Origin: Geminicoccus sp.
GTDB taxonomy: Bacteria > Pseudomonadota > Alphaproteobacteria > UBA7985
NCBI GenBank assembly: GCA_002708995.1
Contig: PAPT01000014.1
Location: 62,001-126,000, forward strand
DNA: 64,000 nt
Direction of reading: 5' to 3'
The position numbers and the translations under genes are program-made. Shown here one piece after another: positions 13,730 to 46,251 of this stretch. The notes under the pieces are model-generated. The model was not told where the DNA came from and made no database searches. It saw nothing but the letters and a program-made list of their open reading frames with translations. Within the stretch, counting starts at the first letter, position 1; the number at the start of each line of letters is the position of its first letter.

Positions 13730-15001
13730 ATGAGCACCGAGCAGCCCCTGTCCCACGCGCAATCGCTCTTCCTCAAGGAAGCTTTCGCCCGCGGCTATCT
13801 GCACCAGTGCACCGACGTCGAGGGGCTGAACAAGGCCTTCGCCGCCGGGCCTGTGACGGCCTATATCGGCTACGACTGTACGGCGGACTCGCTGCACGTC
13901 GGGCACCTGATGAACATCATGATGCTGCGGCTGTTCCAGCGGACCGGCAACCGGCCCATCACCCTCATGGGCGGTGGGACGACCAAGATCGGCGACCCGT
14001 CGGACAAGAACGAGGCCCGTCCGCTACTGACCGATGAAATCATCGCGGCGAACATGGCCGGGATCCGGACCATCTTTGACCGTTTCCTGCGCTACGACGA
14101 CAGCCCGACCGGGGCCATCATGGCCAACAACGCAGACTGGCTGGAGGGGCTGAATTACATCGACTTTCTGCGTGAGGTCGGGCGGCACTTCTCCGTCAAT
14201 GCCATGACCAAGATGGACTTCGTCCGGCGCCGCCTCGAGAACGAGCAGAACCTTAGCTTCCTCGAGTTCAACTACATGATCATCCAGGGCTATGATTTCC
14301 TTGAGCTCTCGCGCCGTCATGGCGCGGCGCTGCAGATGGGCGGGTCTGACCAGTGGGGCAATATCGTTCAGGGGATCGAGCTGGGTCGTCGGATCGACGG
14401 GACGGAGCTGTTCGGCCTGACGGTGCCGCTGCTGGCTACGGCGTCGGGGCAGAAGATGGGCAAATCTGCCGGGGGTGCGGTGTGGCTTAACGCGGACAAG
14501 CTCAGCGATTTCGACTTCTACCAATTCTGGCGGAATACCGAAGACGCCGACGTCGGTCGCTTCCTCAAGCTGTTTACCGAACTGCCGATCGAGGAATGCG
14601 ACGCGCTCGGGCAGGCTGAGGGTGCAGCAATAAATGAAGGCAAGAAGGTCCTTGCCCTGGAAGCGATGCGGTTGTGCCGGGGCGAGGCCGCAGCCGAAGC
14701 GGCAGCCGGCGCAGCGGCGACGACCTTCGGCGGTGGCGGTGTTTCGGCCGACCTTCCGCGGGTGCAGGCCCCCGCCGGCGCAATCGAGGCCGGGATGGGG
14801 GTGCAGGACGCCTTTGTTGCGGCCGGACTTGCAGCCTCCAAGGGTGAGGTCAAGCGGCTGATAAAGGGCGGCGGCGCGCGGATCAACGGCGATAAGGTCG
14901 AAGACGAGGACCTGCAGATCACCGCAGCCGATGTCGACGCGGATACAGGCGCTGTCAAACTGTCTTCGGGCAAGAAGAAACACGTACTGCTGGTCGCCTG
15001 A
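13730..15001 (+). CDS. tyrS: Tyrosyl-tRNA synthetase
   Basis: The 423-residue class I synthetase has HVGH at 56-59 (HIGH motif), KMGKS at 242-246 (KMSKS motif), the YIGYDCTADSLH active-site segment and a C-terminal S4 RNA-binding domain (about 350-423). It attaches Tyr to tRNA-Tyr. Length and order are normal. The preceding hydrolase may share its transcript. The 3' side faces the biotin carboxylase gene, with a repeat element in between that may act as the terminator. Confidence 0.96.
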   Translation: MSTEQPLSHAQSLFLKEAFARGYLHQCTDVEGLNKAFAAGPVTAYIGYDCTADSLHVGHLMNIMMLRLFQRTGNRPITLMGGGTTKIGDPSDKNEARPLLTDEIIAANMAGIRTIFDRFLRYDDSPTGAIMANNADWLEGLNYIDFLREVGRHFSVNAMTKMDFVRRRLENEQNLSFLEFNYMIIQGYDFLELSRRHGAALQMGGSDQWGNIVQGIELGRRIDGTELFGLTVPLLATASGQKMGKSAGGAVWLNADKLSDFDFYQFWRNTEDADVGRFLKLFTELPIEECDALGQAEGAAINEGKKVLALEAMRLCRGEAAAEAAAGAAATTFGGGGVSADLPRVQAPAGAIEAGMGVQDAFVAAGLAASKGEVKRLIKGGGARINGDKVEDEDLQITAADVDADTGAVKLSSGKKKHVLLVA

Positions 15002-15575
15002 ACCAACACTGGCCGATTTTCGCAGAGCGGACCGGGCTGCGCGACGCTTGGCCCCGCCGGGCGAAGCTCGGTCGGGGGCAAGTCGGCGCAACCAAATAGT
15101 CCTAATGTCAGACACAGCCTGTCAACAGGCCCGTCGATCGCTACTCCCCGGCTCAGCACACCGGCACCGGTGGCGTCCCGCCCCCTCAGCGGCTTCGCCG
15201 TTTTCGGGGTCGGCCCGCGCAATTCAACGGCCCTGCGGAGCAAGGCTCCGCAGGAATATTTCACTCAAGCTGCGCGTGGGAGGACCGAAGGCCGCGAAGA
15301 GGCCAAGGTCCGAGCGCGCCACCTATCGTTTCACACTCAAAACGCTTCGCTTTGAGTGTCGCTTCAGTTCACTCTCAACACGCTGGGTTTAACCTGAACC
15401 TGTCGAAGGACTTTTAGTGTCGTTCGACCAAAAATCTCCCACACGCTCACAGCGACGCGTTTTGAGCCGGACTGTTAACAGGTTGCGGGCTCGATTTGAC
15501 GCTGCTTCGCGGCTTTCAAATCTCCCCCGCTCAGCATCCTTATCGGCATGATCGGCAGATACAGACGAGGGCCGG
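15002..15575. repeat. Non-coding repeat element, copy A, between convergent tyrS and the carboxylase gene
   Basis: This gap of 574 bases has no credible gene but is full of repeats shared with 44096-44460. Shared blocks: 15038-15095 (hairpin block), 15272-15323 (GCGTGGGAGG...CCGAAGGCCGCGAAG; about 46 of 52 bases identical to 44096-44147), 15399-15452, and 15482-15530 (about 46 of 49 identical to the end of copy B). The block order differs between copies. It holds several GCGAAGC mini-hairpin sequences on either strand. A frame on the plus strand reads VGGPKAAKRPRSERAT, similar to copy B. Function unknown; a mobile hairpin element or bidirectional terminator is plausible. Confidence 0.75.
15232..15254. 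repeat. Perfect hairpin inside repeat copy A
   Basis: A 10-bp perfect stem, CCTGCGGAGC / GCTCCGCAGG, with a 3-base loop AAG. It is followed on the plus strand by AATATTTC, a weak terminator-like tail, so it may end tyrS transcription. It has no exact counterpart in copy B. Confidence 0.6.
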
Positions 15576-17558
15576 TCAGCCCTGTTCGAGGGTCAGAATT
15601 ACCTCATCACGGCGAAGCGTCCCGCCAATGGTCGCGGGGATACTCTCGACTACGCCATCGACAGCCGCCGTCAGCAGGTTCTCCATCTTCATGGCTTCGA
15701 CAACAGCGAGGGTTTCACCGGCCTTAACCGCCTGCCCTACCTCGACCGCGACCGACCGCAGCAGCCCGGGCATGGGCGAGATCAGCTGCCGCGACGTGTC
15801 GACAACCTTTGGCTCTGGCATGAGATCGTAGAGCGCGGCGACCTCAGCCCGCATCGGGGTCAGGCTCACCGACCGCCCCCCATGCGACACTGTCCACACC
15901 AGCCCGCGCCGGCGGGCCTGCAGCACCAGCGCTCGGCCACCCAGCGTACAGCTGTAAACCCGCTTACCCGCCCGCCAGTCACGAACATCCGCGCCGAACT
16001 GCGCAGACCCCGGCTTGGGCCCGTCCACGTGCAGGCTCAGCCCTTCAGCGCTGTCTTCAAACCGCAGGCTATAGGCCTGCCGCTCCACCAGCACCGTGTA
16101 AGCGCCATCTGCATCTGCGGCCTCAAGCGCCTGATTGACGCGCAGCACCTGCCCGGCCAGGGCCACGAGCATGCCCTCATCGGCGCCGCCGGCGCCGTGC
16201 GCGGGGGTAAAGCCCTCGGGGAATTCCTCAGCGATATAGTTGGTGGTCAGGGCGCCGGACTGGAACCGCTCAGCGCCCAGCACCTGATTGACGAAGGCGA
16301 CGTTGTGGTCGAGCCCCTCGATCACGTACCCATCCAGCGCCCCAGCCAGCCGCTCGATCGCCTCGCTTCGATCCGCCCCGAAGGCGATCACCTTGGCGAT
16401 CATGGGGTCGTAGTGCATGGAAATCTCATCGCCCTCGCGGACCCCTGAATCCACTCGCACGCCCTCGCCCAGCGGCTCCTCGTAGACTGACAGCCGACCG
16501 ATCGACGGCAGAAACCCGCGCAACGGATCCTCGGCGTAGACCCGGGCTTCGACCGCCCAGCCCTCGTGCTCGATCTCGGATTGGCGGAAGGGCAGCTCCT
16601 CCCCGGCCGCAACCCGGATCATCCACTCGACCAGATCGATATCGTGGATCAACTCGGTCACTGGGTGCTCGACCTGCAGCCGCGTGTTCATCTCCAGAAA
16701 GTAGAAGTTACGGTCCTGATCAGCGATGAATTCCACCGTCCCCGCCGAAACGTAGTCGACCGCCTGCGCCAGCGCGATCGCCTCCGCACCCATGGCGGCC
16801 CGGGTCTCCGATTCGATCAGCGGCGAGGGAGCCTCCTCGATCACCTTCTGGTGCCGGCGCTGGATCGAGCACTCGCGTTCGCCCAGATGCACAATGTTGC
16901 CGCGCTGGTCGGCGAGGATCTGGATTTCGATGTGGCGCGGATTGACGATGAATTTCTCGATGAAAATGCGGTCGTCGCCAAAGGCGCCCTTGGCCTCGGC
17001 CTGTGCCGCGCGGAAGCCCTCGGCCACGTCCTCGGCGCTCTCGGCGATGCGCATGCCCTTGCCCCCGCCCCCGGCCGACGCTTTTATCATCACCGGAAAA
17101 CCGATCTCGGTTGCGATCTCGACGGCCTGCTCGGGGCTGTCGATCTCGCCGACGTAGCCAGGCACGGTGGAAACACCGGCGGCAGCGGCGAGGCGCTTGG
17201 ACTCGATCTTGTCGCCCATGGAACGAATGGCGCCCGTCGGCGGACCGATCCAGACCAGCCCCGCCGCCTGCACCGCTTCACAGAATTCAGCATTTTCACT
17301 CAGAAAGCCGAAACCGGGGTGGATCGCCTTGGCGCCGGTCTTGAGCGCGGCGTCGATAATCCGCCGACCTTGCAGGTAGGACGCCGCCGAGGCAGCCTCC
17401 CCGACCCGCACCGCTTCATCGGCCATCTGCACGTGCTTGGACCCGGCATCAGCGTCGGAAAAGACCGCAACTGTGCTGATGCCCATGGCGCGAGCCGTGC
17501 GGATTACGCGGCAGGCGATCTCGCCCCGGTTCGCGATCAGAATTTTATCAAAGGGCAA
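15576..17558 (-). CDS. Acyl-CoA carboxylase alpha subunit (biotin carboxylase + BCCP), propionyl-CoA type
   Basis: The 660-residue protein has a biotin carboxylase domain (about 1-450: KILIANRGEIACRVIRTA, HPGFGFLSEN, GGGGKGMR, EMNTRLQVEHPVTE), a linker/BT region and a C-terminal biotinyl domain with EAMKMEN (621-627, biotin on K624). It carboxylates biotin for transfer to an acyl-CoA by a partner beta subunit. Length and the BT region fit propionyl-CoA carboxylase (pccA) best; methylcrotonyl-CoA carboxylase cannot be excluded because the beta subunit is not in the window. Confidence 0.88.
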   Translation of the reverse strand: MPFDKILIANRGEIACRVIRTARAMGISTVAVFSDADAGSKHVQMADEAVRVGEAASAASYLQGRRIIDAALKTGAKAIHPGFGFLSENAEFCEAVQAAGLVWIGPPTGAIRSMGDKIESKRLAAAAGVSTVPGYVGEIDSPEQAVEIATEIGFPVMIKASAGGGGKGMRIAESAEDVAEGFRAAQAEAKGAFGDDRIFIEKFIVNPRHIEIQILADQRGNIVHLGERECSIQRRHQKVIEEAPSPLIESETRAAMGAEAIALAQAVDYVSAGTVEFIADQDRNFYFLEMNTRLQVEHPVTELIHDIDLVEWMIRVAAGEELPFRQSEIEHEGWAVEARVYAEDPLRGFLPSIGRLSVYEEPLGEGVRVDSGVREGDEISMHYDPMIAKVIAFGADRSEAIERLAGALDGYVIEGLDHNVAFVNQVLGAERFQSGALTTNYIAEEFPEGFTPAHGAGGADEGMLVALAGQVLRVNQALEAADADGAYTVLVERQAYSLRFEDSAEGLSLHVDGPKPGSAQFGADVRDWRAGKRVYSCTLGGRALVLQARRRGLVWTVSHGGRSVSLTPMRAEVAALYDLMPEPKVVDTSRQLISPMPGLLRSVAVEVGQAVKAGETLAVVEAMKMENLLTAAVDGVVESIPATIGGTLRRDEVILTLEQG

Positions 17559-18520: not shown

Positions 18521-18918
<398 letters not shown>

Positions 18919-19190
18919 CGCCGCTCATGGACGGCATCAGCCCGCACAGCCGCCCTGAAGCCGGATCGTAACGATGCTACTGCGGCGCTATGGTCGAACG
19001 CGAGGCGCGAGCGAATCGAATTCCTGCCACTTTTTCGACTCTGAAAAACGCAAACTTTCTTGCGATTTCAATTTACTCTTACCATATCGTGAGATAGTCT
19101 GCTTCGCGTTATGCGCTGCGTTTTTAGCAGTGTTCGCCGTTTCATCGATGATTTTGACCCCGCCGTTAGTTTTGTAGGCCACTTGCCACC
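18919..19190 (+). promoter_or_regulatory. Upstream region of the dcw cluster; mraZ absent
   Basis: This AT-rich gap lies between rnpB and rsmH, the place where mraZ is usually found. No MraZ-like frame and no TGGGN-type MraZ boxes are seen. A promoter-like pair, TTGCGA, 17 bases, CATATC, lies in the stretch around 19061-19090 and is the best guess for the cluster promoter. Confidence in the exact site is low. Confidence 0.35.
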
Positions 19191-40213: not shown

Positions 40214-44073
<3,860 letters not shown>

Positions 44074-44463
44074 GCTTCATCAGGCACTCAGGCGTGTGCG
44101 TGGGAGGGCCGAAGGCCGCGAAGCGGCTGAGGACCGAGCGCGCCACCCTAACTCAGGCCCAAAGCATTGAGCTTCAAACATTGGTTGTGTTTTGCGCAAC
44201 GCTTGGCCCGACCGCGCGAAGCGCGGTCGGGCCAAGTCGGCACAACTTCTTTGGGTTAATGCTCAACACGCAAAGGTTATCCTACGCCTGTTGAAGGACT
44301 TTGAGGGTTGTTCAAGTGAATATCTACCACACGCTCAATGACTAGCCACCGTTGGACGTCAAGGGAAACCTCGCTCACAGCGAAGCGTTTTGAGCGCAGA
44401 GCGAGAGAAGTTGCGGGCTCGATTTGATGCCGCTTCGCGGCTTACAAATCTCCCCCACGCAAC
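44074..44463. repeat. Non-coding repeat element, copy B, between convergent ligA and clcA-like gene
   Basis: This 390-base gap carries the second copy of the element at 15038-15530. It opens with GCGTGGGAGGGCCGAAGGCC (44098-44117) and ends with the near inverted sequence whose complement begins GCGTGGGGGAGATTTG (to 44460), so the ends look like imperfect inverted repeats. It contains at least four GCGAAGC/GCTTCGC mini-hairpin cores and the strong hairpin at 44202-44236. The plus strand has a frame reading VGGPKAAKRLRTERAT. No gene is recognised. Confidence 0.75.
44202..44236. repeat. Perfect 16-bp hairpin with GAA triloop in repeat copy B
   Basis: CTTGGCCCGACCGCGC (44202-44217) and its exact complement (44221-44236) enclose a GAA loop, forming the GCGAAGC mini-hairpin at the tip. 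Copy A has a related but imperfect stem at 15047-15082. As DNA or RNA this would be very stable. No T run follows, so it is not a standard terminator. Confidence 0.85.
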
Positions 44464-46251
44464 TCAGGCCCTGTCCTCCCGGCTCCAGGGCGCAGCCTCG
44501 GGCAGCTCTTCCTGCCCCTCAGCCACCAGCATGGCCCGGTGATAGGCATAGGACACGTCGAAGTCGTGGATGACGCCGATCAGCCGCTGGCTGGTTTCAT
44601 CCTCGATCACCGGTACGTGGGCCTCACCCTTCTCCACGAAGCGCTTCATCGCCGTCGTCAGGTCGCAGGCCGAGGTCACCGACAACGCCGGGGACGCCAG
44701 GTCGGCGGCCGTCTTATCGGGATCATCGAAGGCACTGCGCGATGTCTCAAGCGTAATGAATCCCTCCAACCGGCTTCCCTCACCAATCACAAACACTCGC
44801 CCCCAGCGGCTGGCAATCACCGCCTCGAGCGTCGCTGGTGCAGGCAGGTCTGGCGTCACCGTGTCCGGCTCTTCATCCAGCACCTCGGAAACCTGCGTGT
44901 TGGCCAACAAAGAGATGTCCTTGCCATCGCGGATGTCGTGCCCCATCGACTGCAGCTGCCGGGTGAAGAACGAATGCCCGGTCAGGGTCCGCGACAGCCC
45001 GACCGCGAACACCACCGCCACCATCGACCCCACCGCCATGGGGTAAGAGCCGGTCAGCTCGAACACCATCAGCACGGTCGAAATCGGCGCGCCGAGCACC
45101 GCCGCCGCGACCGCCCCCATGCCGACAATTGCGTAGGCCGATGACCCCGAAGTCTCCCACGGCAACCAGCCCACCAGCTGGCCGAATACGGCCCCCAGCG
45201 CCGCGCCGATCAGCAGCGAAGGCGAGAACACGCCACCGCCGAAGCCCAGCCCTTGGCAGGCCGTCGCACAAATGATCTTCCCCACCAGAATGGCGACCAG
45301 CAGCAGCAGACCGTACTGACCGGCCAGCGTCAGCTGTGTCGCCTCGTAGCCGATCCCCAGCACCTGCGGCAGCTGGATTGCGATCAGGCCAACGATCAGC
45401 CCCGCGATCGCCGGACGGCACCACCACGGCAGCCGGAGCTGATCGGCCACCCGCACAATCCGGAAGCTTATGAAGATGAACAGCACGGCTATGAGCCCAC
45501 TGACGCCCCCCAGAGCCCCGAACAGCGGAAAATCGATCGGGCCGGCAATAACAATCTCCGGCATCACGAAGGCCGGGTCATCGCCCCGCACCGCTCGACC
45601 GACCAGCGTCGCAGTCAGCGCCGCGAGCACGCAGGGCGCAAAGACAGAAAAGGCGTAGTGCCCGACCACGACCTCGAGCGCGAAGAACACCCCGGCCAGC
45701 GGCGCATTAAACGAGGCCGCCACCGCCGCAGAGACCCCGCAGGCCAGCAGTGTCCGCCGCACCCGCGGGTCAAGCCCCAGCGCCCGCGCACCCCAGGCAC
45801 CAATAGTGGCCCCCCAGTGCACCATGGGTCCCTCGCGCCCGACGGACGCGCCAAAACCCAGGGAAATCCCATTGAGAGTCGCCGCCTTGATCCCGTCGCG
45901 GAAACTCATGGTTCCCCGCCGCAGCGCCGACGCCGCGATCACATAAGCCACCCCCGGGGGGCGGGGCAGGTTGGGGTAAAAGACCAGCATCAACCCGCCG
46001 ATGATCAGGCCACCGACAACCGGCGCGGCCATCCGCCGCCACCAGTGGTCCTGGTTGAGGCCGGATATCAGCAGCTCCTCCCGGGTCCCCAGCGCCAGCC
46101 ACTGGGTCCAGGCGATCAGCTCAAGGAAAACAACGGCCGCCAACCCCACCAGGGCCCCCACGACCACCGCCAAACCCATGGCCACCACAAGTCCCCGCTG
46201 GCGAAAGGCCAGATGGGGTGAGGCGGTAGCACGGGTCGATGGATCTGCCAT
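44464..46251 (-). CDS. ClC-family chloride channel/transporter with C-terminal CBS pair
   Basis: The 595-residue protein has a ClC membrane domain (about 20-445) and two CBS domains (about 460-580). The gating-Glu motif GREGP is present (SVGREGPMVH), as is GGGVFSPSL and a Glu at the internal proton site (FFALEVV), which favours a chloride/proton exchanger. The first selectivity motif (GSGIP) is degenerate. It faces ligA across repeat copy B and is 23 bases downstream of the thioesterase gene. Confidence 0.9.
   Translation of the reverse strand: MADPSTRATASPHLAFRQRGLVVAMGLAVVVGALVGLAAVVFLELIAWTQWLALGTREELLISGLNQDHWWRRMAAPVVGGLIIGGLMLVFYPNLPRPPGVAYVIAASALRRGTMSFRDGIKAATLNGISLGFGASVGREGPMVHWGATIGAWGARALGLDPRVRRTLLACGVSAAVAASFNAPLAGVFFALEVVVGHYAFSVFAPCVLAALTATLVGRAVRGDDPAFVMPEIVIAGPIDFPLFGALGGVSGLIAVLFIFISFRIVRVADQLRLPWWCRPAIAGLIVGLIAIQLPQVLGIGYEATQLTLAGQYGLLLLVAILVGKIICATACQGLGFGGGVFSPSLLIGAALGAVFGQLVGWLPWETSGSSAYAIVGMGAVAAAVLGAPISTVLMVFELTGSYPMAVGSMVAVVFAVGLSRTLTGHSFFTRQLQSMGHDIRDGKDISLLANTQVSEVLDEEPDTVTPDLPAPATLEAVIASRWGRVFVIGEGSRLEGFITLETSRSAFDDPDKTAADLASPALSVTSACDLTTAMKRFVEKGEAHVPVIEDETSQRLIGVIHDFDVSYAYHRAMLVAEGQEELPEAAPWSREDRA

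Follow-up and report, generated by a model that had tools for sequence, protein, structure and literature searches.

A BIME-like family of palindromic repeats, probably of REP type, beside gene 3' ends in one uncultured alphaproteobacterial genus

REPs described in the literature are palindromes whose foot carries a tetranucleotide, either GTAG or GTGG, or CGTC in many Alphaproteobacteria (PMC3733652, PMC6006769, PMC8266576), the last type combining its CGTC foot tag with a stem of 8-9 bp and a loop of 4-5 nt (PMC3733652). They often occur as dimers with their tags pointing outward, 20-100 bp apart, and adjoin gene 3' ends where the neighbouring ORFs are convergent or co-directional (PMC3733652). 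The enzyme that commonly mobilises REPs is RAYT (TnpA-REP), a transposase with a Y1_Tnp (HUH) domain whose gene frequently stands among REPs of its own. Mosaics of inverted REPs with linkers are known as BIMEs (PMC2817692), whilst outward-facing REP dimers, termed REPINs, have been taken as the mobile unit (PMC3116915).

Two copies, A and B, of a hairpin-rich intergenic element were compared within the window (the whole 64-kb stretch of DNA analysed), and were followed through the assembly that holds it (G000; 2.6 Mb, 42 contigs, 94% complete) and through five relatives of the same genus (G001 to G005). Genes were called by codon usage, and the calls around both copies agreed with Pfam matches. 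The copies, their palindromic units (T, G and H), their other modules and the flanking genes are as follows.

13730-15001, plus strand: tyrS, flanking copy A
15038-15534: copy A, between tyrS and the biotin carboxylase/biotinyl subunit gene, in a gap of 574 bp
15038-15092, plus strand: copy A unit H, a 55-bp palindrome (TGCGCGACGCTTGGCC...GGCAAGTCGGCGCAAC) with the tag GTTG on the minus strand; 95% to the H consensus, model R3 E 1.8e-16
15170-15222, no strand assigned: copy A hairpin module K (GTGGCGTCCCGCCCCC..GGCTTCGCC..GGGGTCGGCCCGCGCAA), common to the orthologous site in G002 and G004 by aligned blocks
15232-15254, no strand assigned: copy A module J, a hairpin (CCTGCGGAG-CAAGG-CTCCGCAGG) read from the sequence
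15271-15323, plus strand: copy A unit G, a 53-bp palindrome (TGCGCGTGGGAGG...GCGCGCCACC) with the tag GTGG on the minus strand; 94% to the G consensus, model R2 E 4.2e-16
15330-15372, plus strand: copy A linker module W, a small hairpin (ACACTCAAAACGCTTCGCTTTGAGTGT)
15374-15449, plus strand: copy A linker module M (..TTTAACCTGAACCTGTCGAAGGACTTT..); 86% to the M consensus
15441-15467, plus strand: copy A linker module S, a CGCTCACAGCGACGCGTTTTGAGC hairpin
15481-15534, plus strand: copy A unit T, a 54-bp palindrome (GGTTGCGGGCTCGATTTGACGC..CTTCGCGGC..CAAATCTCCCCCGC) with the tag GTTG on the plus strand; 94% to the T consensus, model R1 E 1.5e-18
15576-17558, minus strand: biotin carboxylase/biotinyl subunit gene, flanking copy A
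Ending at 44073, plus strand: ligA, flanking copy B
44095-44461: copy B, between ligA and a gene for a ClC channel with a CBS domain, in a gap of 390 bp
44095-44147, plus strand: copy B unit G; 92% to the G consensus, model R2 E 2.4e-15
44193-44246, plus strand: copy B unit H, an almost perfect hairpin; 89% to the H consensus, model R3 E 8.3e-14
44262-44337, plus strand: copy B linker module M; 80% to the M consensus
44372-44408, plus strand: copy B linker module S, a CGCTCACAGCGAAGCGTTTTGAGCG hairpin; 92% to the S consensus
44410-44461, plus strand: copy B unit T; 96% to the T consensus, model R1 E 2.8e-18
44464-46188, minus strand: gene for the ClC channel with a CBS domain, flanking copy B

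BLASTN aligned copies A and B in four blocks on the same strand (84% over 91 bp, 87% over 63 bp, 85% over 55 bp and 75% over 83 bp), bearing out the similarity between 15038-15530 and 44096-44460 that a first-pass annotation had reported. The blocks are indeed shuffled, as it had also stated: the module order is H-K-J-G-W-M-S-T in copy A and G-H-M-S-T in copy B, with H preceding the GTGGGAGG block, that is unit G, in the former (15038 against 15271) and following it in the latter (44193 against 44095). The tyrS/carboxylase and ligA/clc gaps are both convergent, and each copy thus faces gene 3' ends on either side. Added to that first description are the reverse-complement kinship of units G and T, several more linker modules, and two extra hairpins in copy A (15170-15222 and 15232-15254). 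At the position of module J, G004 carries another stem with a similar loop, and module W was not detected in the orthologous element of the genome MED803 (G002). Above the gathering score, an Rfam scan of the window returned RNase P and tRNA only, with no credible match for copy A; the RNase P RNA (class A) lies at 18522-18921 (E 9e-90).

The family extends well past the two copies first noted, and the first-pass annotation's other ground for refutation, a count of two copies at most, does not hold. With copy A as query, 94 matching pieces were retrieved from G000 at E <= 0.01, the lowest E reaching 1e-50. Covariance models for T (R1, made from 25 units), G (R2, from 15) and H (R3, from 18) located at least 120 palindromic units at 60 intergenic loci once their matches had been merged, and no unit fell within a called gene at any of these loci. 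The true number of units is probably higher, since six of the 60 loci are situated at contig ends. Contigs C9, C10, C32, C33 and C35 were observed to end within a few hundred bases of element loci (six loci in all), and the adjoining of these six loci to contig ends indicates that the assembly breaks at these repeats.

The three units are palindromes of about 54 bp built on one plan: the tag is degenerate (GTTG/GTGG), the loop reads CTTC and the end CGCGCA. T lies forward and both G and H are reversed, and T, reversed G and reversed H all read alike: GGTTG/GGTGG, a CG-rich outer stem, an inner stem, the CTTC loop and ..CGCGCA. It was found that model R2, made for G, picks up T units on the opposite strand, which identifies G and T as reverse-complement relatives. 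Of 116 units, 92 carry GTNG at the foot (GTTG in 59, GTGG in 29 and GTAG in two). The unit folds used contain approximately 17-21 base pairs; compensatory changes numbered 21 events in G against 3.5 in shuffles, and eight in H against 1.3, whilst covariation among T units was not above shuffles.

The commonest arrangement is a T-X-G or T-X-H pair with the tags outward and a linker of about 58 bp. Among the 29 pairs that run from T to G or H, the spacing was 50-59 bp in 22 and exactly 58 bp in 13. The opposite arrangement, G or H followed by T, was seen in 13 pairs, and the G...T spacing in these is not fixed (49-230 bp). Linker X consists of a GC hairpin of 9-10 bp (about -22 kcal/mol) followed by CTTTT. 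Other recurrent linkers are W (a CACTCAACACGCTTCGCTTTGAGTG hairpin), M and S (the CGCTCACAGCGAAGCGTTTTGAGCG hairpin of copy B), and their combinations vary between loci; at L011, S is present four times. Near the core of linker M, the word TTCATCCTGAGCNTGTCGAAGGA occurs 11 times in another alphaproteobacterium (G038) and twice in G193, and the pattern TTCATCCTGAGC[CT]TGTCGAAGGA, also near that core, likewise occurs 11 times in G038, an unrelated complete alphaproteobacterial genome (L266, L268-L270), and twice in G193 (L265, L267). An exact copy of TTCATCCTGAGCNTGTCGAAGGA is absent from G000, and no paper with such letters was found.

Placement relative to genes was assessed against a background drawn from the sequence stretches around elements together with the 64-kb window. 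Neighbours were called for 54 unit-bearing gaps, which divide into 29 convergent, 20 tandem and five divergent; the initial calls had given 29, 19 and six, but one 'divergent' gap (C30:45204) owes that label to a spurious call of 135 bp and belongs with the tandem ones. Gaps without units, from 60 bp upward, comprise 25 convergent, 120 tandem and 60 divergent cases, so that the convergent excess amounts to an odds ratio of 8.4 (Fisher p 7e-10), and an element is present in 29 of 69 convergent gaps. Elements in tandem gaps almost always adjoin the upstream stop codon. The proposal that the copies cluster between convergent genes was thereby confirmed, and such clustering is expected for REPs, for which both convergent and post-stop placement are already known (PMC3733652).

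A scan of one genome per GTDB species recovered the T pattern in only three Mediterranean metagenome genomes, those of Rhodospirillaceae bacterium MED803, Rhodospirillaceae bacterium MED834 and Kiloniella sp. MED755, and the exact T pattern was not found in viral contigs. Within the genus, G000, G002 and G004 each gave at least about 70 model matches among the matches listed, G/T cross-matches included, whilst G003 gave four, G005 three weak ones, and G001 none by the models and one weak match by blastn query. Among 55 genomes tested by blastn, none outside the genus was matched. Expansion of the family took place in a single clade within an uncultured Rhodospirillaceae/Kiloniella-like genus of marine alphaproteobacteria.

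The two sites of the window could be followed across these relatives. Elements occupy both the tyrS/carboxylase and the ligA/clc gaps in G000, G002 and G004; in G001, G003 and G005, the corresponding gaps are without units and measure 93, 30 and 40 bp (tyrS/carboxylase) and 8, 18 and 5 bp (ligA/clc). On these near-empty sister gaps, the simplest account is an arrival of the elements in the lineage ancestral to G000, G002 and G004, with loss from the others also possible. The unit-free tyrS/carboxylase gap of G001 (L226 2772-2865) contains a terminator-like hairpin of its own (GAGGGTGCCTT..AAGGCACCCTC, then TGCTGTTTTT). In the comparison with MED803, 15 comparable sites hold elements in both genomes, with a unit string that differs in 13 and is the same in two, and their flanks are mostly 92-97% identical (about 94%). 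Against MED755 and MED834, all 14 shared sites differ in content and one site was seen in MED755 only (L039); the sharing of sites is biased in these sets, as the G000 stretches compared were those surrounding elements. In G004, the tyrS and ligA sites carry the same element of 434 bp, differing solely by an N, though an assembly join is possible for this pair because the ligA copy ends with its contig. Identities of orthologous-site unit pairs relative to other unit pairs were 0.919 and 0.899 for T, 0.921 and 0.872 for G, and 0.899 and 0.896 for H, and this test of concerted evolution yields no clear conclusion because the divergence of orthologous units fits that of their flanks. All genomes compared were assembled from metagenomes, where repeats can be joined wrongly, and some differences in content may be artefacts.

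Several explanations of the family were weighed against these observations. A chance resemblance among GC-rich convergent spacers has only their common GC-rich composition in its favour, and its probability is negligible: no unit-free intergenic region (of 188, each at least 80 bp) matched a block of copy A at 40 bits or more, compared with 53 of 54 unit-bearing regions, the informative figure being 0/188 given that the unit-bearing set is defined by the units themselves, and matches in the genome extend to the E of 1e-50 given above. Chance, which the first-pass annotation had named as a possible undoing of the similarity, is therefore excluded. That annotation had also suggested a non-autonomous mobile repeat, which is supported. 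The family is dispersed and clade-specific, the sister gaps are near-empty and an identical 434-bp pair exists; a mobilising enzyme and a target-site duplication were both looked for and not seen. Searches for Y1_Tnp/RAYT (PF01797) gave no match in G000 and its five genus relatives, several of them incomplete, whilst the E. coli and Caulobacter controls were positive, and the genes between close element pairs are housekeeping or unnamed, with no transposase among them. No target-site duplication was visible at sites A and B, whose flanking sequence has diverged too far from that of the near-empty sister gaps, and no insertion junction was recovered, the MED755-only site (L039) included, which did not resolve. 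If the repeat were a MITE family, in which a classical DDE transposase acting in trans moved an element of 300-450 bp that is bounded by G on one side and on the other by T, imperfectly reverse-complementary to G, then the 434-bp element of G004 would be its best example, as it starts exactly with G (TGCGCGTGGGAG), ends with the reverse complement of that 12-mer and is identical at two loci but for the one N, and copies A and B of the window both run G...T. We nonetheless judge this very improbable, as it is the opposite order, T-X-G/H with TGCGCG ends inside, that dominates (29 pairs against 13), the G...T spacings vary, and neither a target-site duplication nor a transposase between close pairs was seen; terminal inverted repeats on an element of fixed length are true of the G004 pair, and not of the variable G000 elements.

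The first-pass annotation had further suggested a putative protein/RNA-binding site and a role in ending transcription, as a bidirectional barrier, and in what was a weak test the latter drew little support: in unit-bearing convergent gaps, terminator-like hairpins stood at 43 of 60 gene ends against 34.8 in dinucleotide-shuffled sequence, and in unit-free gaps at 13 of 58 against 11.6. As unit-bearing gaps hardly exceed their shuffles, their excess of hairpins is mostly due to length, and intrinsic termination as a general property of the elements is not supported. Termination by elements is still plausible, and linker X is a fair candidate terminator. The stronger statement, that these are bidirectional terminators or 3' stabilisers selected by the host, spread by conversion and kept for ending or protecting flanking transcripts, appears doubtful to us; the strong preference for positions behind stop codons and in convergent gaps, the structure of linker X, and the other hairpins carried by sister genomes at one of sites A and B would suit it, but the near-parity with shuffles, the lack of elements at both sites in three sister species, and the fact that tolerance of insertion alone accounts for 3' placement do not. 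The most plausible host effect, by analogy with proposals for REPs elsewhere, would be on the formation or stability of upstream transcript 3' ends, or on supercoiling between convergent genes. We hold somewhat more open, as a tentative possibility, that the elements are hot spots of chromosome rearrangement at which recombination between dispersed copies reshuffles both modules and gene order. Gene adjacency between G000 and its relatives is broken at 11 of 39 element gaps (L031-L087; three of them being our own contig ends) against none of 179 unit-free gaps, and L045 of MED803 unites the outer flanks of two G000 elements that enclose 2.9 kb. Set against this are a strong detection bias, in that the G000 stretches covered were those around elements only, the tendency of short-read metagenome assemblies to mis-join exactly at such repeats, and the lower identity of MED803 segment L082, which is typical of another species and chimera-like. 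The region enclosed by the two elements (G000:C33:31415-34991) holds a gene for a 714-aa unnamed membrane protein and a pyridoxamine-phosphate-oxidase-like gene, and more diverged copies of these genes (73-76%, L082 compared) lie between elements elsewhere in MED803. The pattern formed by C33, L045 and L082 may reflect either element-mediated movement or chimeric assembly.

The reading that we consider probable is that the family represents BIME-like REP elements of one uncultured alphaproteobacterial genus, formerly mobile and now reshuffled mainly by recombination. In an ancestral lineage, the units may have been spread by a recombinase of single-strand (HUH) type or one comparable to it, and they would have persisted mostly in the DNA that flanks gene 3' ends, particularly between convergent genes, because coding sequence and promoter stay unbroken there. 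The mobilising enzyme would since have been lost, or goes unrecognised, and today's changes in site content would arise mostly among similar modules, through recombination, slippage and deletion between them, the sites themselves being inherited. We think it quite unlikely that a REP-like system instead spreads and swaps modules without a Y1 transposase, with cassettes exchanged in place through their outward-tagged ends by a putative host or recombinase mechanism and the junctions serving as renewable docking sites. The repeat family is real, abundant and well-structured, its sequence new and its kind already known. A less ordinary trait, as far as metagenome assemblies portray it, would be that the sites are stable whilst their modules turn over rapidly and no mobiliser can be recognised.

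Judged by description, the RIME/ABC elements of Rhizobium/Sinorhizobium are the nearest mosaics from Alphaproteobacteria. They are likewise intergenic and palindromic, with dozens per genome (named in PMC2573895), whereas the unit pattern of the present family was found only in this genus among GTDB representatives. MITEs are resembled in the imperfect terminal inverted repeats of about 52 bp on G...T elements and in the one identical pair of G004, but differ in that here the opposite arrangement is dominant and neither target duplication nor partner transposase was found. The CGTC-tagged REPs of Alphaproteobacteria share with the family their alphaproteobacterial hosts, the lack of a dedicated transposase, a predominance of HH dimers and the 3'-flank placement (PMC3733652); in contrast, the units described here have GTNG instead of the CGTC foot tag, stems far longer than the 8-9 bp of CGTC REPs, and common mosaics where clusters are rare among the latter. 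There is also a likeness to the GTAG-tagged REPs, HH dimers, REPINs and BIMEs of E. coli, Pseudomonas and Stenotrophomonas, with which the family has in common intergenic palindromes that number from dozens to hundreds and bear a tetranucleotide where the hairpin starts at its foot, tags-outward pairs with a fixed linker, several palindrome types in linker mosaics, and a position beside stop codons, between convergent or co-directional genes (PMC3733652, PMC2817692, PMC3116915, PMC8266576). Against a REP reading stand a tag that is mostly GTTG, then GTGG and rarely GTAG, rather than the GTAG/GTGG of described REPs, and total palindromes longer than most REPs, of about 54 bp in three paired blocks; no RAYT was found in the six genomes. 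The elements are accordingly called BIME-like REPs, and not RAYT-mobilised REPtrons, because architecture and placement agree with the former, the tag is degenerate and the RAYT search gave no match. Other REP-like repeats that lack a RAYT in the same genome are known, and this family joins them. As the same junctions can be followed through six related genomes in a nearly empty, an occupied and a remodelled state, they offer a way to separate insertion from later reshuffling in REPs, and the elements add to the described systems a well-defined REP/BIME family that is restricted to its genus, comes from an uncultured marine alphaproteobacterium and comprises three tagged palindromes homologous to one another, a dimer of fixed length and few linker modules.
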